Of a stretch of 53,431 nucleotides of DNA, positions 15,000 to 43,333 are shown piece by piece (position 1 is the stretch's first letter; every line of letters starts with the position of its first letter). Both the position numbers and the translations under genes were made by a program. The notes under the pieces were generated by a model. It made no database searches. It was not told the DNA's origin and was given only the letters and a program-made list of their open reading frames with translations. Source of the DNA: Coriobacteriales bacterium (lineage in GTDB: Bacteria; Actinomycetota; Coriobacteriia; Coriobacteriales; UMGS124); the NCBI GenBank assembly GCA_017515595.1, contig JAFWFL010000045.1, positions 1 to 53,431 of the forward strand, given 5' to 3'.

Positions 15000-15818
15000 C
15001 TATAAAACCCATATCACCAACGTGCGCTCTGGTTGGTTAGAAATATTGCTTGTACAGGTAACCAAAGTAATATCATGAGTAGCATTCAAGAGTAGCGCAT
15101 GCGCATCCGGAGACACGGCGGTTGCACAATTTAGAGTATCAAATAACCAGCTACGGTAATCGTCATCCGAATCAAAATCAAACCGTTGTATTTGTTCCCA
15201 CGAGGCATCTACCGTAAGAGCGCAGAGAGGTTGTAGTATGAGTGAACTTGATGGGGTATCCCATACAAGCGATGCCAGCGTATCAAAACAATCCTGAAGA
15301 TATGCGTCCTGCAACATACTGAACATTGCATCAGAAGATGTCATATGATGACCATATACAAGCATATGATGCGGTTCTTGAACATATGCGCATCTATAGT
15401 CTATAAACGGGGTTCCTAACACTGACCAATCACCCCAGAGCGTATGATACAGATACCATTCCTCTTCTTCGCGAGAAGAAGTTGATACTACAGGATAATC
15501 TATAGTGGTATTCTCAACTGTTACCCAGGCAGTAGTTTGAGAGTTGATTTCCCATAAAGTATTCCAGTCCCGGGCGGTATGTTGCGAGGCTTGCTTAAGA
15601 GTGACAGTAACAGATACATTGTCTGTAATAGCTGGTTGAATTATGGGAGTATATGAGGTGTTGCGGGATATTTCCTCATAGGCAGCCTGTTGAGGAATAT
15701 CAATCGCACCCAGGAGTATCCCGAATCCTATACAGAAACAAGCTATGATAAGGAGAAGCACAAGGGCAACCGGTATGCGAGGTTGCCCTTGTGCTTTTAG
15801 GGTATTACACATTACCAT
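15000..15818 (-). CDS. Class B sortase
   Basis: A 272-residue membrane-anchored transpeptidase that cleaves a C-terminal sorting motif and links the protein to peptidoglycan or another surface acceptor. An N-terminal membrane helix lies at about 16-38. The catalytic His is in VYGHHM (about 154), the catalytic Cys is C255 in TLVTCTS, close to the class B consensus TLxTC, and the catalytic Arg is R265. The region after the membrane helix looks like a class B core. The gene overlaps the 3' end of the giant adhesin gene by 7 bases, so it is translated from the same transcript and very likely anchors that protein. No separate Shine-Dalgarno is obvious, consistent with translational coupling. Confidence 0.9.
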   Translation of the reverse strand: MVMCNTLKAQGQPRIPVALVLLLIIACFCIGFGILLGAIDIPQQAAYEEISRNTSYTPIIQPAITDNVSVTVTLKQASQHTARDWNTLWEINSQTTAWVTVENTTIDYPVVSTSSREEEEWYLYHTLWGDWSVLGTPFIDYRCAYVQEPHHMLVYGHHMTSSDAMFSMLQDAYLQDCFDTLASLVWDTPSSSLILQPLCALTVDASWEQIQRFDFDSDDDYRSWLFDTLNCATAVSPDAHALLLNATHDITLVTCTSNISNQPERTLVIWVL

Positions 15819-18800
15819 GAGGCTGGATTATGTGTTTTGAAATGCGCGGCAGTTCTTTGTGGCGAACGCTTTTTGGATTGCAACAGATAATACATGCCAA
15901 CAGCTATCAAGAGAGCAACGCCGGTACCAATGAGCGTTATCCAAAGTATACCTTGTCCGGTTTGAGGCATACTATAGTTGGGATTATAGGTATTTGGGGT
16001 GGTATGTGGAGTATCCGGCGGGGTGGGAATTACAGTAATCTCAGGAGGTGTGGGTTCTTGAGGAGCGGTCGGCTCTTCCGGTTCAGGTTCTTTCTCCGGT
16101 TCTTCTGCTGGGGGTACTTCCGGTGCGGGGTTCACATGTAAGGTTTGCCCTTTGTCGTTGTAATCACGATGCTCTGCAATTACATACCCGTCTTCTGAAA
16201 GTAAAGACTCTAAAAATACCAGGTCGTGATCAGCGAGTTCAAGAGTATTCAATGTGGTTTTTATAGTATAAGACGTATTGGCATAAGATGGTGTAATACT
16301 CGATTGCGCGGTTGCAAGAATTCCCTGGGTTTGGAGATCAATGAGTTCGGTTTGAAGAATATACGTATTTCCCGGTATAACATTGTACAGCTCAACACGG
16401 TCGGCCAGGTGAGCTTCTTTTTCGCACTCAAGGAAATGACTTTCATCATTACTATTAGTTGCAGTAGTATGAATTGCAACAAAATCAACAGTTTGTTGCA
16501 TATCATTTATGTCTTCATGAGCAGCTATTTCAAGGGAATTCTGCAAGAGTTTCTCAAAAGCCACCACACTTATTCCCTGGAGGGAAGAGGCATCAAAGGT
16601 AAACGTTATGTCTATAACTCCGTCAGGGGATTCAGGAATAAATTCAGCCTGTGAGGTAACTGTTTCTCCGTTCACTTTAAGAGGGCGGCCGGTAGATTTG
16701 TTATAGAGCATTCCGGCTATGGTATATGATACTCCGGGAATGAGACCATCATATGTGACCGTATCAACCAAAGTCATCATACCTACAGCCGAAATCTCAT
16801 GGCTCTGTGATTCAGATTCGCTGAGGGTGGTTGCAAGGTAAGGAGTATCAAAAGCTATTGTTTGAGCTTTATCATAAATATCATCATGAACAGCAACTTC
16901 AACCATCTCATCACCGTCGTATCCGGATACCAAAACGAGCGCCTCAAAACACACAACACTTTTACCTATTAAAAGTGAGGTGTCCACATTGTTAAACGTT
17001 ACATATACTGTTCCGCTTGGAGTGTCTGGAACAAAGTCACATACAGCCTCAAGAATTGAGCCGTTCTGTTTGACCGGACCGGAACCGTCACCATAAACCA
17101 AGGTTCCGAACATACGATATTGTCTGCCGGGAAGTAATCCCTCAAAAGATACCGTATCAACAAGGTTGGCCATGTAATTGCCAAGTACATAATGACTGTT
17201 TTCTTCATTGGTAAACATTGTTGCTATCCGGGGGATGGTTACGCTCTGATCAGAGTCATCCAAGTCTTCATGACGTGCTATAACTTCACTTTGGTATGAG
17301 AGTGTTTCGAAAGCTACCAAGGTATGAGAAGCGAGAGACGAGGCATCAAAAACAAAGGTTAACACTACTGTTCCGTTGGATTCCTGCGGAGTAAATGTGA
17401 GATTTGCTGTAATAGGCGCATTGTTTTTTTGAGTCAGAACATTACCGGTTGCCTTATCAACAAGTGTACCGCAGAGTGTGTATTCTTTGCCTGCAACCAA
17501 GCCGGTGTAAGTGACAGTGTCTTCGAGGGTGGTTACAGCTTCTCCCAAAGTAATATGGTCATGGGTTTTTGGACTTGTGAGTATGGTGCTGATGGTTGGA
17601 TTTTCCTCTTCGGGAGGGGTGGGGTTTTGAGGTTCGGAAGGAATTGGTTTATCATCAACAGTGCCCAGGTCTAAATCGACGCTGTCTCGAGAAATTTGAA
17701 CGGTAAACGAGGAGAGATGCAGATCTTGGTTTACAGAGCAAGGCAGCTCTTCTATCAGGTAGGTATCATAAGGAAGTGCTCCAAGTGCATCATTTACTTC
17801 AGAAGATCTCTCTTCATCATTGCTGTACCCGTAGAACCAAAGACCGGCAGCGCTGTCGATAGATGATTCGTTTATTGTACCGTCTTGATTTAGTATAGTA
17901 TCATTGGCATTGGTGTGGTAACTATGGGCATACCAGGAATTTGCGGTATCTATCATACCGTTAACATCAGTTACAGCTATATGATATTCACCGGTTGTTT
18001 GACTTGTGATCTTAAAGGGGATCATACCAAGGCGTTCCATAGTATCCTCGTTTACTTTACTAAAGGTAAAGTCGCCGCGACAGATTCGGTTCTGGAAATC
18101 CCCGGCGGTATCAGAGACACAAACTACCTCTCCATCCTCACGCACTGATACGGTGCGAGTGAGCGTATCATACAAAAGATATGTGTCATTCGAGGCAATT
18201 TCGGTCACATTATATGTGCCATACGGCAGGTTAACCAGGGTTTGTGCGTATCCGTTTTCGTTGGTGATGAGTGTTGCTACTATTTCAGAAGTATTATATG
18301 TAACGCCATCAATAATCACCGGATGTATAGAACCATTGCGAACCTCAAAAGTAATACCACTCAGATTGCCGGCTCCCAAAGCTTGAGCTGTGTGGGTTTC
18401 GAGATCAACTTTTTGGACAGAGATTCCGCCCCGAATAATCTCGTCGCTTATCTCGAGTGTCTCTGTTTGTCCGTCTTCCCGAATCTGTACAGTCCATTCC
18501 TGTGTATTAGGCTTATAGCCTGTTGGCGCTTTGGTTTCACGAACAATATAAGTTCCGTAAGGAAGTTTGGGACTTGTTTTGTTGGATGTAATAACCGCTG
18601 CAGGTTCACCTACAGGAATCAACACATCGTTAACTAAAACACTGTTTTCTCCCGCGTTATATATAGTGAATTCTGCGTCGTCAAGAGAAGCATCTCCTTG
18701 GGAGGTATTGGATTGAATATCAGCATCAGTTTTTATTATATATACATATCCGCAAACCGGGGTATTCTCAAATTCATATTCACAGGTAGTTAAGGTATTT

Positions 18801-21800
18801 GCTATTCGCACTTCTACCAGTTGGTCTTCTGTTACAGCTAACATTGAATTATTGGATTGTGACTCATGAACACGGTAGGTGCCATATGGCAAGAGGTCGC
18901 AAGCGGTTGCTGCATATCCGGCTTCATTTGTAGTAATGGTGGTTACCACATCACCAATATCATAAAGGGTTCCGTTCATATAAACAGGATTTTTACTTAC
19001 GTTAATTATATCAAATGAGATATTTCCCAAAGAGGCGTCACCCTGAGGAGTGTGTCCTGTGCCTACCGATGTTTTGTATAGCTCGATACCGCCTCGTAAG
19101 ACATTGTCTTTTGGCTGGGCCTGTTCGTTCAGCGTTATTACCTGACCGTCATATTCAAGAGTAACGGTTTGTGAATAGGACGCCAGATCATAACCTTGAG
19201 GAGCCGAGGTTTCCTGTATGGTATATGTGCCGAGCTTAAGCGCTAAATCAGTTGAGGCGTGGGTGTCTTCACCTGTAGTAATTTGTAAAATATCATTTCC
19301 TGCTTCATCAAATACGTTGTATTTGGCACCTGTAAGTGTAGCATCACCCTGCGGGATGCCAGAGCAGGTATCAGCGTCTTGTTTCCATAGGTCTATTCCA
19401 CCGTATCCGAGTTTGTTGGTAATAGCGGGGGCGCTAAAGATGTTAAGCTTTTGTTCACCGCTTGTTGATCCGTCAACTTGGAACAGATAAAGCGATTCAT
19501 CCGGTATATATCCAAACGGAGCCTTAGTTTCTTGGATGGTCAGTGTTCCAAGCGGAATACCTGCTGCTGAGCCTGATTCAAAGAAGTAAAAATCATCGCC
19601 GGAAACTTTATGCAAGGCGTCAAATATCACTTCTCCCTGAGAATCAGATTCCAAAACCCAGCTTCTGGTTGGCTGTTCGGGAAGGTTTGAGGTATTATAA
19701 AGCCCGCCGGCATAATAGTTCAAAGTAAACTGTGCGTGTTCAACAGGATCTCCTGAGTCAGCATTAGTTTTATATACTACAATTGAGAGTGGTTGGTATT
19801 GAATTTGGTCTATCATAACACCGGTATCAATCTCGGTTACGGCATCTGCGAGTATTTCGACTTCTTGACATGACGTGTTGAGTGCATAACCATACGGAGC
19901 CTGAATCTCTGCTAGGAGATAGGTACCTACCGGAATGCCTTGAGCAGATGCAACACCAGACTCATCTGTATGCAGTACAAGAAGAGGATCATCTAAAGAA
20001 TCCATGCTTGTTCCCGCAGTATACAACCCATATATTGCATCATTAAGGGTATATAGAGCATTGTTATGTGTGGTATCAGGGTCAGAGGCGCTTTTAGTTA
20101 ACACAAGTGAGCCATATTTTGGCTTTGGGGTATTGGGAACAGATGGATACTGAAATACGTTTACCGTCATATTCCCGCTCGTATCACCTTCAATGTTTTG
20201 TAAAAAGATACTGGCAGACGGTTCATAACCTTCTGGCGCCAAGGTTTCTTCAATGATCACTGTGCCCAAAGGAATGACGGTATTACCCTGCGCATCGGTA
20301 TAATATTCATCGCCTGAGACCTTATGTGATGCATCAAAATATGCATGGCCGTTACTATCTGTTTTTACAACCCAGGTACGCTCAGCTTTTGCGGGGAGCG
20401 CAGATACATCATAGTAATTTCCTGCATAGTAGCTAACCGTAAACTGTGCGCCGGCCAGCATTCTGCTTGTCTGTACCGCGTCGTATTTGCATACAACAAT
20501 ATCAAGCGGGTTGTACTGAGGGGCATTGGTAAGTTCGATAGTTGTTGTCTGAGAATCGAGAATAGTTACATCAACGGTATTGGTATTAATGGCATAACCA
20601 TGGGGTGCACAAGTTTCTACCAAAGCATACGATCCAATGGGTATATCTGTGGCAACAGCGTATCCATATACATCGGTTGTGAGGGTGGCTGTAACCGAGC
20701 CGCTGCTATCTAAGAGTTCAAATACAGCGCCTTCGAGCGAATAGGCATTGTTTTGATTGGTAAGCTCAGGTTGTGAAGAGGACTTATATAATTCGAGTGC
20801 GCCTTTGGGGTTATATATCCAATCCATGCCCATCAGGAATTGGTTTCCGTAACCGTACCCGCCATCAACAATAAAAATATCAAAATCATAGCCGGACGGA
20901 ATGCCGTAAGCTCCATTGGGATTTACCGAGAGCAACTGAAACGTCGCATTTGGATTGGTAACCGTTACCCTGTCATATATATCAAAACCAAACAAGTGGT
21001 AAACTACCCAGTCTGTCAGTTCTTCAGAGCAATTAAATAAAGCGCCGTCAAGGTCATCATTGGCGAGGTGTGCAATCATAATATGCAGAGCGACATAATA
21101 ATCCTCAATACTCATGGGACTGCCGTCATACCAGGTCTGCGGCCATACATTATGTTCGAGCGCCCAATCAAAACCGGGACCGCCCACACTATAGAACATG
21201 ATGCGCTTTATGGTTTCCCACCAATAAAGTGCATTGTCTGCCGCAGGTAGTGAACCGGGATCTACAATCAGGTATTCTCCGCTATACGGAGCTGCAAGGC
21301 GTGGGCTTACACATACTCCCAGTTTCCCGTTGATATAAAACTCATGGGTACCCCATGCATCATAAGGAATATAACCATCAGATGCTGTAACATATGCCGC
21401 TTCTCCAATTGAGGGGCCTACCATGAGAGATATCGACTCCTGAGCAGGTATGGTATCTATGAGAACATTTCCCTCAGCGTCAGTAATATATGCCCTGTTA
21501 ATACTCCGGGCACTTATGCCATATAGGGAATATGCGCCGTTTTGCATAAGAGGTAAACTTATGTGAACATGGCGCCCGTTATTCTCGGTTACATACCATA
21601 TAGCATCAGGTTGAGAGTACCAAAGAGATGCAGTATCAATCGCAACGAGGGTTTTCATATCAATTTCTAAGTAAGCGCCGGTTGCGGGTATACCCGCCAC
21701 ATCAACAATAAACTCACTGTCTGTGCCGCACATAAGCGAGGCGCTCAACAGCTCGGTTTCATAGGGAGATATGGGTTCATTTTGCGATGCTGGTACTTCT

Positions 21801-22204
21801 TCTGCAAGCGGGGGAGCGTGAGCGTCAAGATCACCATGATTATCTTGGTTGATAGTGTTTTCAGGAGGTATCTGAGATAACTCGGCAGAAGGAGCGGCAA
21901 TAGGCGCGTCAGGCTCACCCGCCTCATCTGCACTATCAGGAGTATCAGGATCAGCCAAATCGAGCCCGGGCCCCTGCTCGTTATCATTGAGCGTGGAAGG
22001 AGCATTTGTATCAGCTTTTTCCAAAGGGGTCTCTTCTAAGGTAAAACCGTCAGATTCCTGGCCATATAAGGGTAGTGCCCAATAAATAGCTGCCAGGAGT
22101 GTGCATAAACACATTATTGTCAATATGCTTATACACCATTTCAAAGGAAGACCGCAGAGTGTGATTGAAGTATGATTACGGTCACAGTACAGTAAGGTCC
22201 TCAT
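15812..22204 (-). CDS. Giant sortase-anchored adhesin with SpaA-like and ester-bond (VaFE) repeats
   Basis: A 2130-residue surface protein. In order: signal/membrane segment (about 22-45); acidic, Pro-rich linker (50-170); a thioester-domain-like region with a Cys near 298 (GVCVSPRL) but His near 373 (VALHIMIAH) where the thioester Gln is expected; nine SpaA/Cna-B-like domains (about 468-1520), most with a Lys at the first strand and a Glu before APxGY, the residues that form isopeptide bonds; four T-Q ester-bond type VaFE repeats (about 1540-2020), each ending in DxxQT/S; a Pro/Glu stalk; MPQTG near 2076; a membrane helix and a basic tail. ATG 22204 follows AAAGGA; an upstream GTG at 22234 lacks a site. 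Probably a long stiff adhesin. MPQTG differs from LPxTG. Confidence 0.9.
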   Translation of the reverse strand: MRTLLYCDRNHTSITLCGLPLKWCISILTIMCLCTLLAAIYWALPLYGQESDGFTLEETPLEKADTNAPSTLNDNEQGPGLDLADPDTPDSADEAGEPDAPIAAPSAELSQIPPENTINQDNHGDLDAHAPPLAEEVPASQNEPISPYETELLSASLMCGTDSEFIVDVAGIPATGAYLEIDMKTLVAIDTASLWYSQPDAIWYVTENNGRHVHISLPLMQNGAYSLYGISARSINRAYITDAEGNVLIDTIPAQESISLMVGPSIGEAAYVTASDGYIPYDAWGTHEFYINGKLGVCVSPRLAAPYSGEYLIVDPGSLPAADNALYWWETIKRIMFYSVGGPGFDWALEHNVWPQTWYDGSPMSIEDYYVALHIMIAHLANDDLDGALFNCSEELTDWVVYHLFGFDIYDRVTVTNPNATFQLLSVNPNGAYGIPSGYDFDIFIVDGGYGYGNQFLMGMDWIYNPKGALELYKSSSQPELTNQNNAYSLEGAVFELLDSSGSVTATLTTDVYGYAVATDIPIGSYALVETCAPHGYAINTNTVDVTILDSQTTTIELTNAPQYNPLDIVVCKYDAVQTSRMLAGAQFTVSYYAGNYYDVSALPAKAERTWVVKTDSNGHAYFDASHKVSGDEYYTDAQGNTVIPLGTVIIEETLAPEGYEPSASIFLQNIEGDTSGNMTVNVFQYPSVPNTPKPKYGSLVLTKSASDPDTTHNNALYTLNDAIYGLYTAGTSMDSLDDPLLVLHTDESGVASAQGIPVGTYLLAEIQAPYGYALNTSCQEVEILADAVTEIDTGVMIDQIQYQPLSIVVYKTNADSGDPVEHAQFTLNYYAGGLYNTSNLPEQPTRSWVLESDSQGEVIFDALHKVSGDDFYFFESGSAAGIPLGTLTIQETKAPFGYIPDESLYLFQVDGSTSGEQKLNIFSAPAITNKLGYGGIDLWKQDADTCSGIPQGDATLTGAKYNVFDEAGNDILQITTGEDTHASTDLALKLGTYTIQETSAPQGYDLASYSQTVTLEYDGQVITLNEQAQPKDNVLRGGIELYKTSVGTGHTPQGDASLGNISFDIINVSKNPVYMNGTLYDIGDVVTTITTNEAGYAATACDLLPYGTYRVHESQSNNSMLAVTEDQLVEVRIANTLTTCEYEFENTPVCGYVYIIKTDADIQSNTSQGDASLDDAEFTIYNAGENSVLVNDVLIPVGEPAAVITSNKTSPKLPYGTYIVRETKAPTGYKPNTQEWTVQIREDGQTETLEISDEIIRGGISVQKVDLETHTAQALGAGNLSGITFEVRNGSIHPVIIDGVTYNTSEIVATLITNENGYAQTLVNLPYGTYNVTEIASNDTYLLYDTLTRTVSVREDGEVVCVSDTAGDFQNRICRGDFTFSKVNEDTMERLGMIPFKITSQTTGEYHIAVTDVNGMIDTANSWYAHSYHTNANDTILNQDGTINESSIDSAAGLWFYGYSNDEERSSEVNDALGALPYDTYLIEELPCSVNQDLHLSSFTVQISRDSVDLDLGTVDDKPIPSEPQNPTPPEEENPTISTILTSPKTHDHITLGEAVTTLEDTVTYTGLVAGKEYTLCGTLVDKATGNVLTQKNNAPITANLTFTPQESNGTVVLTFVFDASSLASHTLVAFETLSYQSEVIARHEDLDDSDQSVTIPRIATMFTNEENSHYVLGNYMANLVDTVSFEGLLPGRQYRMFGTLVYGDGSGPVKQNGSILEAVCDFVPDTPSGTVYVTFNNVDTSLLIGKSVVCFEALVLVSGYDGDEMVEVAVHDDIYDKAQTIAFDTPYLATTLSESESQSHEISAVGMMTLVDTVTYDGLIPGVSYTIAGMLYNKSTGRPLKVNGETVTSQAEFIPESPDGVIDITFTFDASSLQGISVVAFEKLLQNSLEIAAHEDINDMQQTVDFVAIHTTATNSNDESHFLECEKEAHLADRVELYNVIPGNTYILQTELIDLQTQGILATAQSSITPSYANTSYTIKTTLNTLELADHDLVFLESLLSEDGYVIAEHRDYNDKGQTLHVNPAPEVPPAEEPEKEPEPEEPTAPQEPTPPEITVIPTPPDTPHTTPNTYNPNYSMPQTGQGILWITLIGTGVALLIAVGMYYLLQSKKRSPQRTAAHFKTHNPASW

Positions 22205-22265
22205 AAGTGCTTCCTTTCTGGTTGTGGGTAGCACGTGAGCCTATCGCGATTGACCTTACAGAAAG

Positions 22266-35065: not shown

Positions 35066-36058
35066 ATGGTTAATATCACAAGGCGTTATTTTGTACGTTC
35101 AGCTGCTATGTTCGCAGCTGCTTCTGCTCTTGCGGTTGCCGGTTTTGGCAGCATTGAGCAGGCTCAGGCAGCAGCAGATCTCCGCTTTGTAACCGGTGGC
35201 GAGTCGGGCACCTACTATGCGTTTGGTTCAGTTCTTGCCCAGCATGCAACCAACAATGCCGGTATTAAGGTAACTGCTGTTGTTGGTAACGGCAGCCAGG
35301 CCAATGTTCAGGAGATTGAGGACGGTCTTGCAGACCTCGCATTCTGCCAGTCAGACGTTATGGCGTATGCGTATCAGGGAACCAACCTCTTTAAGGACTT
35401 TGCAATTGATTGCTTCTCAACCGTTGCAGCTCTTTATCAGGAGCAGGTGCAAATTGTTACCTGCGACGCTAAGATCAAGACCGTAGCTGACCTCAAGGGC
35501 AAGACGGTTTCTATTGGTGCAGCAGGCTCGGGCGTATACTTTAACGCCATTGATATTCTTGGTGTTTATGATATCGAAGAGAAGGACATCAAGGCTACCT
35601 ATCAGAGCTTTGGCGACAGCGCTGACGCCCTTAAGGACGGCAAGATTGACGCTGCATTTATCGTAGCCGGTGCACCTACCACTGCTATTACTGACCTTTC
35701 TACCACCAAGCAGGCATATCTTGTTGCTCTTGATGAAGAGCACATCAAGAAGCTTCTTGAGAAGTCGCCTTATTATTCTGCAGCAACCATCAAGAAGGGT
35801 ACCTATAAGGGTATTGATGAAGACATTCAGACCGTTGGCGTAGACGCTGTTGTTCTTGCTGCCGATACCGTATCTGAAGACGACATTTACAAGTTTGTTG
35901 CCGACATCTTTGACAACTATAAGGATCTTGTAGATAACCATGCCAAGTATGCCGAGCTGAGCCTTGAGAAGGCCGCTTCAATCACCACCGTTCCTTATCA
36001 TCCCGGTGCAGCTAAGTACTTTGAGGAGAAGGGCTTTAAGGTCGAGGTTAAGAAATAG
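35066..36058 (+). CDS. TAXI-family TRAP transporter substrate-binding protein
   Basis: A 330-residue exported ligand-binding protein. The N terminus carries a twin-arginine-like signal (ITRRYFVRSA plus a hydrophobic stretch, ending QAQAAA). The mature part begins LRFVTGGESGTYYAFG, the typical TAXI start, with GNGSQANVQEIEDGLADLAF and VSIGAAGSGVYFNA further on. TAXI proteins capture carboxylates such as glutamate or other organic acids and deliver them to a TRAP permease; the ligand here cannot be read from sequence. Start ATG 35066 follows AGAAGGAG. Codon use is strongly biased (AAG, GTT, ACC), as for a highly expressed gene. The permease gene follows after a hairpin. Confidence 0.93.
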   Translation: MVNITRRYFVRSAAMFAAASALAVAGFGSIEQAQAAADLRFVTGGESGTYYAFGSVLAQHATNNAGIKVTAVVGNGSQANVQEIEDGLADLAFCQSDVMAYAYQGTNLFKDFAIDCFSTVAALYQEQVQIVTCDAKIKTVADLKGKTVSIGAAGSGVYFNAIDILGVYDIEEKDIKATYQSFGDSADALKDGKIDAAFIVAGAPTTAITDLSTTKQAYLVALDEEHIKKLLEKSPYYSAATIKKGTYKGIDEDIQTVGVDAVVLAADTVSEDDIYKFVADIFDNYKDLVDNHAKYAELSLEKAASITTVPYHPGAAKYFEEKGFKVEVKK

Positions 36059-36171: not shown

Positions 36172-38724
36172 GTGCCTAACAGGATTAAAAGAAAAACTAC
36201 CGGTGTAGCTCCAACCGCACAGCAGGATGTAGATGTTCGTGAACATGTTGTTGATTTGAAGGCGCATCCTCAGGCAAAAGACCGCACCGTAGAGCACAGT
36301 GTCCGCTCCCTTGAAGATGCCGTAAATATTGCCGAGGAGCTCGAAACCGGTATTGCTACCGAGGGTGTCGTTGACAATATTATGAAAAAAGAAGTCGACA
36401 GCGATGCACCACTTGATGAAGCCGCTGTTGATGATGTGATGCGCAAGTATGACCGCGAAAGCAATACGCGCATTTGGGAAGGACTTCCCAAAACGCTTAT
36501 ATCAATATTTATGGCGCTTTTCTCGATATATTGCATTGGCATGACGCTTTTTAGCACCGCATTGCCCGAGACTCGCCTTTCGCTTTTCCTCGCATTTATT
36601 ACCATCATTGGATATCTTATTTATCCCGCCAATAAAAAGAGGGTTCGTACTAACTATATACCCTGGTATGACATTGTATTGATGGTTGTTGGCGCGGGGT
36701 GTTTCTTTTACTTTGCCTTTAATGCGCTCGATATTATTAACCTGCGCGGACGCATTTTGCCCTACCACGTTGTTATAGGCGTGATAGGCATTCTTGTAGT
36801 GGCCGAGCTCTGCAGGCGCAGCGTAGGTTTGCCCATCATCATTGTGGTGGGAGCGCTTTTGATATATGCGTTCTATTACTTTGTGGTAAGCAGAGGTCTT
36901 GCGGTTGAGAAGGCCCTTACCACCGTTGTTAATAAGATGTTCTACTCAACAAACGGCATAATAGGAACACCTATCAATGTCTGTTATACCTACATAGTGT
37001 TATTCATTATCTTTGGTGCGTTTTTGGAACGTACCGGTATCGCAGGATTCTTTATTTCGTTCGCAAACCGTTTGGCAGGATGGTCAAGCGGCGGTCCTGC
37101 TAAGGTTGCCGTTATTTCAAGCGCATTATGTGGTATGGTTTCCGGTTCGAGCGTAGGTAATACGGTTACCACGGGCTCGGTTACTATTCCTATGATGAAG
37201 AAGACAGGTTTTAGACCTGAGTTTGCCGGAGCGGTTGAGGCTGCAAGTTCAACAGGCGGACAAATCATGCCGCCTATCATGGGCGCTGCGGCATTCCTTA
37301 TGGCCGAGTATATGGGCGTGCCTTATATTGATGTTGCCGCCAAGGCAATTCTCCCCGCTGTGCTGTACTTTACCGGCATTTTTATTACGGTTCATCTTGA
37401 AGCCAAAAAACTCCAGCTCAAGGGTATTCCCCATGAAGAGTTGCCCAAGTGGTCTTATCTCGGCAGGAACTGCTACCTCGTATTACCGCTTGTGCTTTTG
37501 GTTTGGCTTGTAGCAACCGGTGCACGTACCATGGCATGGTCTGCAGCAATCTCTATCATTGGCGCTATTCTGGTTGGTTTCATCAATTTCTTTATCACTA
37601 ATCTGCGTGAGCGCGAATGCGGCCAGACGGTTTACAGAGTCTTTTTAAACACTGTAAAGATAGCTCTCGTAACCGCATATGATGCCCTTATTGCCGGTGC
37701 AAAGAGCTGCATCTCGGTAGCTGTTGCATGTGCAATGGCAGGTTTGATTGCCGGTTGCATTACCGTTACCGGTTTGGCGGGTACGCTTATCAATGCCATT
37801 GTAAACGTGGCCGGCGACGCGATTATCTTTGGTCTTGTTCTGACCATGCTTTGCTGCATTGTTCTGGGTATGGGTGTTCCCACAACAGCAAACTACTGCA
37901 TTATGGCTTCGACCACGGCGCCAATTTTGATCCAGCTTGGCCTGCCTGTGGTAGCGGCGCATTTCTTTGTTTTCTACTTTGGTATTGTTGCCGACATTAC
38001 ACCTCCTGTAGCGCTTGCGGCATACGCGGGCTCAGCGATAGCAAAGTCAAAACCCATGAAGACGGCGGTCAACGCAACCAAGCTTGCCATTGCAGCCTTC
38101 CTCGTGCCCTATATCTTTGCGTTTAACCCCATTATGTTGCTTGAGGGCGAGTTCATGTGGTTTGAGTTTGCCCAGGTTATTCTTACAGCGGTTGTGGGTC
38201 TCTTTGGCGTTGCGCTTGCTCTCAACGGTTATTTGTTCCGTCCGGTACATCCCGTGCTCAGAGTTATTCTCATTGCCGCCGGTCTCTCCATGATGATCCC
38301 CGGTACGCTGACCGATGTTCTGGGTCTTGCGGTCATTATTGGTGTATGCATATTCCAATGGGCGCTTTCCTTTAACAGCCGCATGGATAAAGACGACATG
38401 CATTACTTTGTGTGCAGATCTCTGGCCTACCTGTATGAGTGCACAAAGCAAGGAATTGAACCCAATGCTAAGCTTCTTGAAGCTACCAGTCCCCTCTATG
38501 CAAAGATTCCCGCATCATACTGGAATCTTATCTGGGCAGGTATGGCCGAGAAAGGCTTGGTTACCGGTGTAGAGACAGAGGTTGTGGACGGAAAACTGCA
38601 AGCCACCCTTGCTCATCCTGAAATTACCTATACGGGCATAGACTATATATGTACCGATACCACCATGAAGCACACACTCCGCATGCTCAAGAGCTCCGGA
38701 GAAACAATGCTCGAAGAGGAATGA
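36172..38724 (+). CDS. Fused TRAP transporter permease (DctQM type) with extra C-terminal domain
   Basis: An 850-residue integral membrane protein. Residues 1-100 are hydrophilic. Then come many membrane helices: a DctQ-like small subunit is fused to a DctM-like large subunit (for example SGSSVGNTVTTGSVTIPMMKK, GGQIMPPIMGAAAFLMAEY and LGMGVPTTANY, typical of TAXI-type fused permeases). From about residue 737 on, a soluble tail resembles a YjcQ-type winged helix (LYECTKQGIEPN, then ITYTGIDYICTDTTMK); this is my own weak match. It imports the ligand captured by the TAXI protein using an ion gradient. Start GTG 36172 follows AAAGGAG at eight bases. The end overlaps the dipeptidase start. Confidence 0.92.
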   Translation: MPNRIKRKTTGVAPTAQQDVDVREHVVDLKAHPQAKDRTVEHSVRSLEDAVNIAEELETGIATEGVVDNIMKKEVDSDAPLDEAAVDDVMRKYDRESNTRIWEGLPKTLISIFMALFSIYCIGMTLFSTALPETRLSLFLAFITIIGYLIYPANKKRVRTNYIPWYDIVLMVVGAGCFFYFAFNALDIINLRGRILPYHVVIGVIGILVVAELCRRSVGLPIIIVVGALLIYAFYYFVVSRGLAVEKALTTVVNKMFYSTNGIIGTPINVCYTYIVLFIIFGAFLERTGIAGFFISFANRLAGWSSGGPAKVAVISSALCGMVSGSSVGNTVTTGSVTIPMMKKTGFRPEFAGAVEAASSTGGQIMPPIMGAAAFLMAEYMGVPYIDVAAKAILPAVLYFTGIFITVHLEAKKLQLKGIPHEELPKWSYLGRNCYLVLPLVLLVWLVATGARTMAWSAAISIIGAILVGFINFFITNLRERECGQTVYRVFLNTVKIALVTAYDALIAGAKSCISVAVACAMAGLIAGCITVTGLAGTLINAIVNVAGDAIIFGLVLTMLCCIVLGMGVPTTANYCIMASTTAPILIQLGLPVVAAHFFVFYFGIVADITPPVALAAYAGSAIAKSKPMKTAVNATKLAIAAFLVPYIFAFNPIMLLEGEFMWFEFAQVILTAVVGLFGVALALNGYLFRPVHPVLRVILIAAGLSMMIPGTLTDVLGLAVIIGVCIFQWALSFNSRMDKDDMHYFVCRSLAYLYECTKQGIEPNAKLLEATSPLYAKIPASYWNLIWAGMAEKGLVTGVETEVVDGKLQATLAHPEITYTGIDYICTDTTMKHTLRMLKSSGETMLEEE

Positions 38725-39768: not shown

Positions 39769-40671
39769 CTATTTTGCTCCTGCCTGGTCATGCGCATAGG
39801 AATGCTCAGCAAAGTAGTCCCAGAGACGGCGGGCGGCGTTTGAAAGAGTAACGTCACGCTTTTTTATGACATACGTGCCAAACAAATCAGCGTCGGCCAT
39901 GTTGAGCGGTATATATACGACGTCCTTATAGGGCTGGGTAGAATCCGGCGCACATGCAAAAGCGAGCGCAGAGTCTTTGGTGCGAAAATGTTCAAAGACA
40001 TTCATGTCGGAGGTTGCAACAACAATGTTGGGATAGATGTCAACTTTGCGGCACTGCTCAATAAAGAACCGGTGCAGATGGTTACGCTCGCCTAAGGTTA
40101 CAAAAGGCACACCGTCCATGTCTTCAAGCTCAAAATGGTCATATGAAGCAAGCGGACTCCACTTGGGCACACTTACGTGATATCCGGGGTGACCGAGATC
40201 GAGACAATCAAAGTCGGTCAGGTACTTGGGATGACTTCCCAAAATGCCCAACTCAGCATCGCCCTTCTCGACCATAAGCAAGGTTCCGTCGGAGTGAATT
40301 TCTTCAATATGCACATCAATATCAGGAGCGCTTTCTATAAATTTAGAAAGAAAGTCTTCGGGGAACGGATGCAAAGCGCCCTGCGAAAGAGCAATATTCA
40401 AGATGCTTTTATGCTTAATACCTACATATTTTGCTTCTAAATTGTCATATGACTCAAGCAAGGGAGTGATTTCAGCAAGAAATGCGGCGCCTTCATCTGT
40501 GAGACGGACACCGTTTTTATCTGAGTCAAGCAGATGTAGCTTGGTTTCTTCTTCGAGCTTAGCAATGGTGCGGCTTAAAGCCTGGCGGGTTATAAACAGG
40601 GTTTCAGAAGCCTTACTGTAGCTCCCCGCTTTTGATACTTCTGCGAAGCAGCGCATTTCCCGTAAATCCAT
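39769..40671 (-). CDS. LysR-family transcriptional regulator
   Basis: A 300-residue LysR-type regulator. The N-terminal winged helix-turn-helix is clear (MRCFAEVSKAGSYSKASETL, then TRQALSRTIAKLEEET), followed by a periplasmic-binding-fold co-inducer domain from about 90 on. It lies convergent to the dipeptidase gene (16 bases between stops) and divergent from the rhodanese/FMN/DUF169 cluster. LysR proteins usually control a divergent gene, so that cluster is the most likely target; the dipeptidase/TRAP operon is another candidate. Start ATG 40671 follows GAGGTTATGCC. Confidence 0.92.
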   Translation of the reverse strand: MDLREMRCFAEVSKAGSYSKASETLFITRQALSRTIAKLEEETKLHLLDSDKNGVRLTDEGAAFLAEITPLLESYDNLEAKYVGIKHKSILNIALSQGALHPFPEDFLSKFIESAPDIDVHIEEIHSDGTLLMVEKGDAELGILGSHPKYLTDFDCLDLGHPGYHVSVPKWSPLASYDHFELEDMDGVPFVTLGERNHLHRFFIEQCRKVDIYPNIVVATSDMNVFEHFRTKDSALAFACAPDSTQPYKDVVYIPLNMADADLFGTYVIKKRDVTLSNAARRLWDYFAEHSYAHDQAGAK

Positions 40672-40697
40672 GGCATAACCTCATAGTACAAACAAAC

Positions 40698-40733
40698 GTG
40701 CCAAAAATTTGCACCGGTGCAGAATCATGGCAC
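40698..40733. promoter_or_regulatory. Concentric palindrome, likely LysR operator
   Basis: The 10-bp palindrome GCACCGGTGC (40711-40720) is flanked at equal distance by GTGCCA (40698-40703) and TGGCAC (40728-40733). All three parts share one centre (40715.5). It sits 27 bases from the LysR start and about 140 bases before the rhodanese gene. Such nested symmetry suits a LysR-type tetramer binding site. A weak promoter toward the cluster may be CTGACA (40768-40773) with TAGTAT (40793-40798). Confidence 0.6.
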
Positions 40734-40875
40734 TTACATTCCTTTAACTGCATCGCCTAAACTAATTCTGACATAGGAAAGGCGACGTCTCTTAGTATAG
40801 CAGACAAAATGCTTTGCTAAAAGATGCAGTTTTGCTGCTCCTGGTCATAAATATTGCGCGAGAAAGGAAGTTGCC

Positions 40876-41577
40876 ATGAAAGTTGATCGTCGTAGTTTCC
40901 TCAAGACAGCCGTAGCAGGCGGCGCTGCTTTAGCACTTGGTGCCGGTTCAGCTTTTGCAGAAGAAGCCGAGCTTGCTCCGCTCCCCGCTCCCGATCCTGA
41001 TCCCGAGAGCATGTTTGGTGTTGACAAGAACATCAATATGGAGACCATTGACCAGTATGTCGGCCGTCCGGACGTATGCTATCGCGACGTTCGTATGCTG
41101 TTTGACCCGGCAGATTATGCTGCTATTGGTGGTAACGCAGATCTTTCTGCCACCATCAAGGGCTTCAAGATTGTTCCTTATCCCTATCTTGCAACACTTA
41201 CCGCTCTTCCTGTTGAGGGCGCTTATGATGCCGAGACACTCTTTAGCCTTGAGTGGGATGAAGCCGGCAACATCATTGCTGCTAAGCCCAACTATCTCGA
41301 GTCCCAGCAGATTCTCGACGACCTCTTCCCCAAGGATAAGGCCATTTTCTTTATGTGCGGCGGCGGTGGCTATGCCGGCATGACCAAGGCTCTCCTTATC
41401 TTCCTTGGCTGGGATCCCGAGCTTCTTTACAACGTTGGTGGTAACTGGGGTTACACCGGCGAGAATGCTCTCGAGCTCATTATTTATTCAGAGGAGAAGG
41501 ACGGCGTAGACATCTACGCTACCTGGCGTGCAGATTACGCAACCATCGACTTCAGCCGCCTGCACCCGGCAGAGTAA
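40876..41577 (+). CDS. Tat-exported rhodanese-like protein
   Basis: A 233-residue protein with a clear twin-arginine signal (VDRRSFLKTA, hydrophobic stretch, AFA cleavage near 28). The mature part looks like a rhodanese domain: YRDVRMLFDPADYAAIGG near 69-86, then the strand AIFFMCGGGGYAGMTKALLIFLGW with candidate active Cys C161, then LYNVGGNWGY. Another cysteine, C68, lies in the mature part. Rhodaneses move sulfane sulfur through a persulfide on the active Cys; the loop here is CGGGGYAG rather than CxxGxR, so activity is uncertain. First gene of a three-gene Tat cluster, 20 bases from the next. Start ATG 40876 follows AAAGGAAG. Codon use is strongly biased, suggesting high expression. Confidence 0.8.
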   Translation: MKVDRRSFLKTAVAGGAALALGAGSAFAEEAELAPLPAPDPDPESMFGVDKNINMETIDQYVGRPDVCYRDVRMLFDPADYAAIGGNADLSATIKGFKIVPYPYLATLTALPVEGAYDAETLFSLEWDEAGNIIAAKPNYLESQQILDDLFPKDKAIFFMCGGGGYAGMTKALLIFLGWDPELLYNVGGNWGYTGENALELIIYSEEKDGVDIYATWRADYATIDFSRLHPAE

Positions 41578-41597
41578 AATAGTCAGGAGGAACTCAG

Positions 41598-42242
41598 ATG
41601 CAAACCATGAGCAGGCGCGACCTGCTAAAGGGTATGGCGCTTGCGTGCGGTTCTGCAGCGTTGCCCATAGCTGCATCCCAAGCCTTAGCTACAGAAAGTG
41701 TTGACGAGGCAGAGGAGCAAAGTGAATATATTCAAGCAGGCGGCTATACGCTCATACCGTATACCCAGTATGCAAGCGGCGGTATTAAAACTGACGTCTA
41801 TGCCGTTATTCTGTTTGAGAACAGCAACTCGACCTTTACCAAGTATCAGGTTGCTTACACTTCTTGTACGTGCCGTGATGCCGCGAGCAATTACCGCTCG
41901 GTAATGTACGTGGAATTGCTCAATACCAAGCCTACGGCTGAGGAAGCCACTATTCGCTGGATTACCTATGGCGAAAATGATGGTTACATTGCCGGCTTTT
42001 GGGGCGACAGCAACCCGGTTCACGGGCGTCCTGATTACACGGCTGAGTATATGGAAGAAAACTTTGTTGCCAAGCTGGTCAAGCATTCAAAAGCAGATTT
42101 TGATGCATGGGGTGGTTACGGCACGCAAATTGAGGGTATTGACACTGACGCTGTGGCAGGAGCCACGGTCTCAACAAGCAACATTACATCTGTTTTGCAA
42201 GCGCTCTTTGCGTATCACGCAGCTAAGTATTACAACAAATAA
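41598..42242 (+). CDS. Tat-exported FMN-binding-domain protein
   Basis: A 214-residue protein with a twin-arginine signal (MSRRDLLKGM, cleavage near 30). The C-terminal part has D184-AVAGAT-V-S, which matches the ApbE flavin-attachment pattern, so FMN is likely linked to T190 outside the membrane. A CxC pair (C90, C92, in TSCTCRD) sits in the middle and could bind metal or act as a redox disulfide. Such exported flavoproteins carry electrons in envelope redox chains. ApbE itself is not in this window. Start ATG 41598 follows AGGAGGAAC. It lies between the rhodanese-like and DUF169 genes. Confidence 0.8.
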   Translation: MQTMSRRDLLKGMALACGSAALPIAASQALATESVDEAEEQSEYIQAGGYTLIPYTQYASGGIKTDVYAVILFENSNSTFTKYQVAYTSCTCRDAASNYRSVMYVELLNTKPTAEEATIRWITYGENDGYIAGFWGDSNPVHGRPDYTAEYMEENFVAKLVKHSKADFDAWGGYGTQIEGIDTDAVAGATVSTSNITSVLQALFAYHAAKYYNK

Positions 42243-42321
42243 CCGGCTGTATGATGCGTTAGGATAAAGTATAAAGACACGATCTGTGTCTCTATGTTTT
42301 AACGGAGAAATGGAGGAGAAC

Positions 42322-43203
42322 ATGTCTGTTGATCGTCGTGATTTTCTTAAGGGTGTTGGCGTAGCTGCTGCCGGCGCTGCTGTTGCCAGTGTTGCAACCA
42401 CTGCTCTTGCAGAAGAAGAAAAGCCTCAACCACCATATGCTGAGTGGAACACCTACATGCGCAACATGATTCGTATGGACTGCGACCTTATTGGTATTAA
42501 GTTCTATGAGCATGTTGAGGATGTTCCTGAGTATGCCGTTAGCCCCATGCGTGATATGGGCGTTCATGTAGCCGCTTGCCAGGCTCTGAGCATGGCTCGT
42601 TACAACAAGAAGACCATTGTTATGACCGCTCAGGACGAATGGTGCTGGGCACCGCTCGTAGGCTTTGGTATGGTTGACTGCAGCGAGGGCACCGAGGCCT
42701 TTGAGACCATCGTTAAGTTCATTGGTATGAAGGATCAGGAAGCCGGCCGTCGTTTCTATGCTAACGATTATCCAAGGCTCCCGCTTTACAAGTATGAGGC
42801 ATGGGTAGTTGGTCCTCTGAGCACCATTGATTATCTCCCTGACGTAACCCTGGTTTATGGCGACCCGTATGCAATTAACTGGGCCGGCATGATCGCCAAG
42901 TATGAGGGTGGCAAGGTTATTTCTTCTCGTCATGACGGTATTGACTCCTGCTGCTACGAGATGCATGACACCATGACCGATGACGACTACAAGGTCTGCT
43001 TCCCCGACTGCGGCGAGATTGTACGTGCACGCACCAAGATGACCGACGCTGTTCTCTGCATCCCGGCATCCAAGCTTGAGTCCTACATGCAGGCAACCCA
43101 TGAGTCCACGAAGTACAACTTTGAGGTTCAGTTCGAGTATCCTGTTGACTTTGGTCACCTTGGATTCTACAGCGCAGTATTTAAGCTCTGGGGTCTTGAG
43201 TAA
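42322..43203 (+). CDS. Tat-exported DUF169-family protein
   Basis: A 293-residue protein with a twin-arginine signal (VDRRDFLKGVG, cleavage near 30). The rest resembles DUF169, a family of unknown function: GVHVAACQALSMARY and DEWCWAPLVGFGM are its typical Cys-containing segments. Nine cysteines are in the mature part (54, 86, 108, 120, 210, 211, 226, 230, 246), enough to bind a metal or cluster, but no known motif is formed. ATG 42322 is used because GGAGGAG precedes it and the Tat motif follows; an in-frame ATG at 42286 is less suitable. Third gene of the cluster, followed by a strong terminator. Strong codon bias suggests high expression. Confidence 0.8.
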   Translation: MSVDRRDFLKGVGVAAAGAAVASVATTALAEEEKPQPPYAEWNTYMRNMIRMDCDLIGIKFYEHVEDVPEYAVSPMRDMGVHVAACQALSMARYNKKTIVMTAQDEWCWAPLVGFGMVDCSEGTEAFETIVKFIGMKDQEAGRRFYANDYPRLPLYKYEAWVVGPLSTIDYLPDVTLVYGDPYAINWAGMIAKYEGGKVISSRHDGIDSCCYEMHDTMTDDDYKVCFPDCGEIVRARTKMTDAVLCIPASKLESYMQATHESTKYNFEVQFEYPVDFGHLGFYSAVFKLWGLE

Positions 43204-43267
43204 TCACTGGATCAAGAGTTGCTCGCGAGTATTAAACTCGAAAGCAAGCCCAAATAAAGCATAGATG

Positions 43268-43306
43268 GGGCGGGGTTTTACCGGAGATTCCGGTGGAACC
43301 CCGCCC
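43268..43306 (+). terminator. Terminator of the Tat-exported cluster
   Basis: GGGCGGGGTT (43268-43277) pairs with AACCCCGCCC (43297-43306); an inner ACCGGA/TCCGGT extends the stem around a tiny loop. A T-rich tail follows. It lies 64 bases after the DUF169 stop. Confidence 0.85.
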
Positions 43307-43333
43307 TTTGTGTCTTTGCGGACACGTTTTGTT

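Follow-up and report, generated by a model that had tools for sequence, protein, structure and literature searches.

What do three consecutive genes, each opening with a twin-arginine (RR) signal for export by the twin-arginine translocation (Tat) pathway, do together in a Coriobacteriales bacterium? They lie on the + strand of contig JAFWFL010000045.1 (GenBank assembly GCA_017515595.1), of which positions 1 to 53,431 were analysed and are called the window here, and were confirmed as open reading frames (ORFs) at 40876-41577 (gene 1, 233 amino acids (aa)), 41598-42242 (gene 2, 214 aa) and 42322-43203 (gene 3, 293 aa). A first-pass annotation had read them as the rhodanese-like, FMN (flavin mononucleotide)-binding and DUF169 members of one extracytoplasmic relay for sulfur or electrons, and these features on which it drew were confirmed in the sequence: three RR-signal genes, C161 in gene 1, T190 and a CxC pair in gene 2, nine cysteines in gene 3, a divergent LysR gene and a strong terminator. 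We find that genes 1 and 2 are an ancient conserved gene pair of many gut and rumen bacteria and that gene 3 is a lineage-specific addition outside this conserved module. We put the probability that the pair is a conserved extracytoplasmic sulfane-sulfur (persulfide) redox pair, or reductase, at roughly 0.55; the relay idea survives in this form for genes 1 and 2, and is not supported for a unit that includes gene 3.

The rhodanese-flavoprotein gene pair

An alignment scan of 84,980 species genomes with gene 1 gave 339 candidate stretches, the best 80 of which were kept as public loci; together with 14 further loci from the class, these make up the 94 gene 1 loci discussed below. Genes were called by codon usage, and some GC-rich loci were poorly called. 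A gene 2 relative stood directly downstream of gene 1, on the same strand, in 45 of the 80 loci, and the taxa with the pair included Oscillospiraceae and other Clostridia, Treponema and the Eggerthellales lineage UBA1419. Both genes are also present in a cultured bacterium, Flavonifractor sp. An112 (L094). This recurrence, like the conservation of the C161 and CxC/T190 motifs, goes beyond chance. An uncultured Clostridia metagenome-assembled genome carried a natural single-frame fusion of the rhodanese and FMN parts (L105:9947-11122; 391 residues), with one lipoprotein signal and both motifs intact. In the gene 1 tree, the backbone of which was poorly resolved, the window grouped with UBA1419 (support 92), and the nearest sequences all came with gene 2. 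A further 18 loci formed one clade (support 99) in which gene 1 was followed by a thioredoxin-like gene (15 loci) or fused to it (3 loci). Exported rhodaneses adjoining a thioredoxin-like protein were seen in Saccharibacteria and Bacilli (L125, L129, L131, L135, L144 and related loci), and the rhodanese-thioredoxin-like fusions were at L132, L138 and L139.

An AlphaFold model of the gene 1 protein, built with relatives from twelve loci (predicted local distance difference test score (pLDDT) 82.8; predicted template modelling score 0.79), was searched against the PDB with Foldseek, and all 50 matches listed were rhodaneses or sulfurtransferases (best E 0.016, probability up to 1.0), among them the rhodanese domains of NADH-dependent persulfide reductases, MST, YnjE and Wolinella Sud. 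A profile search of PDB sequences with gene 1 returned a single match, a rhodanese aligned at its active-site region (E 0.033); sequence-only searches of the single proteins against solved structures gave nothing useful. In the model, C161 directly follows the strand 156-160, as the active-site cysteine of a rhodanese does, and it was present in 81/81 sequences, within an essentially invariant loop, C-G-[GA]-G-G-Y-A, which reads CGGGGYA in the window. The position that is Arg or Thr in the CxxGxR/T loop of thiosulfate rhodaneses and MST was Tyr in 98% of sequences. The loop reads CG[SA]GVTA in MST and CRKGVT in thiosulfate rhodanese, and by these motifs that of gene 1 appears closer to MST, from which gene 1 differs in its single rhodanese domain and its export. 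That the model fold matched rhodaneses throughout and C161 was invariant bears out the first-pass call for fold and nucleophile, and we regard gene 1 as a divergent rhodanese that presumably carries a persulfide on C161.

In gene 2, all 46 sequences of the family kept the CxC pair (C90/C92) and D184, A185 and A189, which gives the invariant patterns C-x-C-R (the CxC reads CTC in the window) and D-A-x-x-x-A-[ST], with Ser or Thr at the T190 position in every gene 2 motif printed. The attachment motif is DAVAGAT in the window and DAV[ATS]GA[ST] in homologues, with some variants off this pattern. ApbE was encoded in 12/12 gene-2-bearing genomes tested, with two copies in the window's genome, and was absent from 2/4 tested genomes that had gene 1 without gene 2. 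The export signal of gene 2 is of Tat type in the window and of Sec or lipoprotein type in Clostridia. With its motif conserved and ApbE present, the flavin-attachment call held up, and the gene 2 protein is, on sequence grounds, likely to be flavinylated at T190. It resembles known ApbE-flavinylated extracytosolic proteins (PMC8238504, PMC11334425) in being exported, in its FMN_bind-like C-terminal part with D-A-x-x-G-A-[S/T] and in the ApbE of its genome; it differs from them in its invariant CxC and its rhodanese partner, rhodanese being absent from the main text of both flavinylation surveys.

Partners in other genomes and a proposed chemistry

The company kept by gene 1 relatives varied with lineage. 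The Clostridial pair was often in an operon with secreted proteins of the Oxidored_molyb fold (PF00174), to which were added either a FecCD-type ABC transporter and an NTPase or molybdenum cofactor (Moco) genes (moaA, MOSC, mogA, moeA, XdhC-like). Two of these operons (L082:809-9711 and L101:3665-17695) combine secreted Oxidored_molyb-fold proteins of ~1000 aa and ~350 aa, an uncharacterised family of ~390 aa and the rhodanese-FMN pair with the FecCD-type transporter or Moco genes, and are apparently an undescribed exported molybdenum-related system. Eggerthellales gene 1 relatives were found with DMSO-reductase-family molybdoenzymes, the best NCBIfam match of which was the thiosulfate reductase PhsA; the nearest solved structure to one of them was a Thermus thiosulfate/polysulfide reductase. 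These molybdoenzymes were accompanied by Fe-S and NrfD subunits and once by a second, canonical rhodanese, and another gene 1 relative was found with an FAD+FMN_bind flavoprotein, NrfD and Fe-S proteins. A signal-less gene 1 copy in genome G310 directly adjoined a CoA-disulfide reductase with a C-terminal rhodanese domain, the architecture of persulfide reductases. The window's own genome had no PF00174 protein, and among the loci most closely related to the window pair (L068-L080) no neighbour was constant, which argues that the pair can act alone. All these partners of gene 1 relatives act in sulfur or thiol redox chemistry, and many are flavoproteins; a persulfide-redox mechanism draws its main support from this.

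Drawing on the model fold, the conserved motifs and pairing, the fusion, these neighbours and the presence of ApbE, we propose that the exported rhodanese would take sulfane sulfur from a donor outside the cell (polysulfide, thiosulfate or an organic persulfide) and hold it as a persulfide on C161. The gene 2 protein would carry an FMN that ApbE has joined covalently to T190, together with a redox-active C90-x-C92, and would pass electrons to or from the persulfide on the rhodanese, in the likeliest case reducing it so that sulfide is released. The two proteins would then do at the cell surface what the cytoplasmic persulfide reductases, which unite a flavoprotein and a rhodanese, do inside.

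Those enzymes, the NADH-dependent persulfide reductase Npsr and the CoA-disulfide reductase with a rhodanese domain, CoADR-RHD (PMC7969121), likewise use a flavin, a redox cysteine and a rhodanese cysteine to shuttle sulfane sulfur; a gene 1 relative adjoins such an enzyme in G310, and 3nta, 3nt6, 3ict and 6pfz were among the Foldseek matches. They are, however, cytoplasmic, consist of one FAD/NADH protein and bind CoA, whereas here there are two exported proteins, FMN_bind-like and not Pyr_redox, with no NADH or CoA site. As neither protein matches Pyr_redox, we describe the pair as working like Npsr/CoADR-RHD and not as a member of that family. There is also a likeness to periplasmic rhodaneses that supply sulfur to reductases, such as Wolinella Sud and the haloarchaeal rhodanese co-transcribed with PsrA (PMC5437934): they too are exported rhodaneses near sulfur reductases, as are the Eggerthellales gene 1 relatives in their PhsA/PsrA-like, NrfD and Fe-S operons. 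The partner of Sud is a molybdenum polysulfide reductase, whereas that of the rhodanese in the window and in Clostridia is the FMN_bind/CxC protein, with no such reductase adjacent.

Gene 3 and the layout of the locus

Gene 3 is a clear DUF169 (PF02596, COG2043) protein, at 92.2 bits against a cut-off of 27 (E 5e-26), and the sole DUF169 in the window's genome. The first-pass annotation had joined it to genes 1 and 2 as one unit, and the distribution of the family spoke against this: DUF169 was found at 0/94 gene 1 loci (0/80 of the named and 0/14 of the further class loci), and we rejected the idea that the three form a conserved operon. Any DUF169 at all was found in 9/36 pair-bearing genomes searched, the nine including the window's genome and UBA1419 under two handles, and only in the window's genome did it lie within the pair locus. 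Relatives were present in 57/398 genomes of the class, most closely in G310, G342 and G184, the commonest kind being fused to ferredoxin domains. Closer relatives, up to 43% identical, were found in 12/297 Clostridia searched, often in several copies, and a plasmid search for DUF169 found none. An export signal was seen in 1/62 DUF169 ORFs examined, that of the window; the other 61 had no convincing signal.

The mature gene 3 protein has nine cysteines (54, 86, 108, 120, 210, 211, 226, 230 and 246). In an alignment of 24 sequences C86 (24/24), C108 (21/24) and C210 (24/24) were conserved and the other six were not. Rare adjacency of the three genes, or loss of C161 and the nine cysteines from close homologues, had been named beforehand as what would tell against the first-pass reading. 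All three were neighbours at none of the 94 gene 1 loci, six DUF169 cysteines varied and C161 was conserved; half of this case came out against it. The structure prediction that it had called for gave a confident AlphaFold model of the DUF169 protein (pLDDT 85.6) and no usable fold match in the PDB (best E 0.69). Gene 3 keeps the family's C86, C108 and C210, and differs from the other 61 ORFs in its export signal and from many Coriobacteriia members, which are ferredoxin-fused. A metal or cluster may sit on C86/C108/C210 of a protein exported folded by Tat, which may serve the pair as an extra acceptor or a substrate-binding partner.

Most Coriobacteriia DUF169 proteins (L011-L036, for example L033 and L018) are fused to ferredoxin-type 4Fe-4S domains, which suggests a redox role for the family. 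The neighbours of close gene 3 relatives varied, and included glycyl radical enzymes, enolase-superfamily proteins with redox genes, and Old-Yellow-type reductases; at L065:3-2057 and L063:3246-8325 the glycyl radical enzymes included one strongly like the sulfopropanediol dehydratase HpfG. The literature on DUF169 and COG2043 held incidental mentions only. The most suggestive of them concerns Desulfovibrio alaskensis, in which a DUF169 gene adjoins TauE (Dde_0597/0598) in a cluster that gives nitrate resistance when mutated, on the mechanism of which the paper is silent (PMC4001038).

Genes 1 and 3 exceed the cut-off of the Pfam TAT_signal model (25.9 and 24.0 bits) and gene 2 falls just below it (19.3 bits); the RR signals at their N-termini read DRRSFLK, SRRDLLK and DRRDFLK in the order of the genes, and TatC is encoded in the window's genome. 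Divergent from gene 1 lies a LysR-type regulator (39769-40671, - strand), with HTH_1 and LysR_substrate both over their Pfam cut-offs. The intergenic region between them (40672-40875) is, by position, the presumed promoter and LysR control region; a sigma-70 consensus scan found no site in it, and the overall number of sites did not exceed shuffle expectation. In UBA1419 (L049/L067) the divergent gene beside the same pair encodes a LysR with 49% identity to that of the window, and LysR probably controls the pair. The start codon of gene 3 is an ATG behind a ggaggag; reading from a GTG at 42286 gives a longer frame, which does not open with the signal peptide. The 77-nt spacer between genes 2 and 3 (42245-42321) folds better than shuffles (z = -2.98) and holds a small hairpin at 42275-42291 on the + strand (7-bp stem, AGACACGATCTGTGTCT), a possible attenuator or processing site that may allow separate expression of gene 3. 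The cluster ends at a strong intrinsic-terminator-like hairpin on the + strand (43267-43307), with a stem of 19 pairs, 12 of them G-C, and a T-rich tail (-44.7 kcal/mol, z = -7.25).

Beyond that terminator, 1.1 kb downstream of the cluster as first described, lies the TauE gene that had been suggested to export a product of the relay. The terminator and a nitrilase-family gene intervene, and nothing near TauE recurred with the pair (tblastn, 80 loci), so TauE was rejected as part of the system. The biased codon use once ascribed to the whole cluster was confined to gene 1 (effective number of codons, Nc, 37.9) and gene 3 (Nc 35.4), both among the top three of 27 window genes, and it suggests that these two are made in quantity; gene 2 (Nc 55.8) was the second least biased of the 27, and the spacer divides it from the very strongly biased gene 3.

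Elsewhere in the window, a TAXI-type solute-binding protein (35066-36058; Nc 37.4) is as strongly biased as genes 1 and 3, may be abundant, and has an N-terminus, ITRRYFVRS, that resembles a Tat signal. A TRAP transporter fused permease (36172-38724) has at its C-terminus an additional YjcQ-like domain (PF09639, residues 751-841), and a 2140-aa adhesin-like protein (15812-22234, - strand) has a thioester domain, five SpaA-type domains and four T-Q ester-bond domains.

Weighing the readings

Several observations weigh against a persulfide redox pair. Gene 1 had no Pfam PF00581 match at E ≤ 0.1, its signal being the sole Pfam domain, and since the loop Arg of CxxGxR is Tyr, thiosulfate may not be the donor. 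Gene 2 lies below the FMN_bind cut-off (14.8 bits against 22, E 0.045), as does a homologue (18.2 bits, E 0.0039), and its attachment motif reads AGAT, not the published ApbE flavinylation motif, [S/T]GA[S/T] (PMC11334425). The codon bias of genes 1 and 3 is missing from gene 2, which points to uneven expression within the cluster, and the Oxidored_molyb and Moco operons of Clostridia could point to the maturation of molybdenum enzymes.

On this last alternative, the pair would mature or repair exported molybdenum enzymes, the rhodanese supplying sulfur to the Mo centre or a Moco-type protein and the flavoprotein, with its CxC, keeping it reduced. The secreted PF00174 proteins and the moaA, MOSC, mogA, moeA and XdhC-like genes beside the Clostridial pair fit this, as do the molybdopterin oxidoreductases beside Eggerthellales gene 1 relatives, but such neighbours are missing around the pairs most closely related to that of the window (L068-L080), and the window's genome has no PF00174 protein. 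Moco sulfuration, moreover, is normally cytoplasmic, whereas the pair is exported, and elsewhere the same rhodanese is partnered with thioredoxin-like proteins and a persulfide reductase; we consider this role unlikely. The thioredoxin-like partners, with the invariant CxC and the scatter of the genes over many anaerobes, often standing alone, would also suit a general extracytoplasmic thiol-disulfide or persulfide detoxification, or homeostasis of surface thiols, with no respiratory or nutritional role. The recurrent PhsA/PsrA, NrfD and Fe-S linkage suggests instead a reduction linked to electron transport, and gene 1, given its strong codon bias, would seem to have a bulk role in the window organism, so that we think such housekeeping improbable.

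Less probable again is a single pathway of all three genes in which DUF169 binds the substrate or a metal and TauE exports the product. Same-strand adjacency in the window, three Tat signals and the codon bias common to genes 1 and 3 speak for it, as do the DUF169-TauE neighbours of D. alaskensis and the close DUF169 relatives beside glycyl radical enzymes related to sulfopropanediol dehydratase; the absence of DUF169 from all 94 gene 1 loci and its scarcity in pair-bearing genomes do not, nor does UBA1419, which has LysR and the pair without DUF169 at that locus, nor the terminator and further gene that cut off TauE. A catalytically dead rhodanese fold, acting as a structural or binding domain while gene 2 serves an unrelated reductase, could be read from the Arg to Tyr change and the weak similarity to known rhodaneses. 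Sulfur-redox neighbours count against this, and because C161 and the glycine loop are kept in 81/81 sequences from several phyla, neither of which a dead domain needs, we regard it as very improbable.

An extracytoplasmic persulfide redox pair is thus the reading that we favour. A fuller version, which we offer only tentatively and think less likely than not, holds that the pair is an undescribed exported persulfide-reductase family (a rhodanese with a covalently flavinylated CxC protein), widely distributed across several phyla of gut and rumen anaerobes, which here has recruited the first known exported DUF169, with a new fold and a three-Cys centre, as an added redox or sulfur-accepting component. 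We found no description of the rhodanese/FMN-binding pair in the open-licence literature, and although it may be described elsewhere, the gene pair is apparently undescribed.

Extracellular sulfane sulfur, as polysulfide, persulfides and thiosulfate, is a major, poorly mapped electron sink and source of sulfide in the gut and rumen. If our reading is right, the pair, with its 339 candidate stretches in the species-level scan, would be a new route to sulfide in abundant, mostly uncultured anaerobes, and would assign a role both to many lipoproteins now annotated as 'hypothetical' and to flavinylated proteins of a new class.

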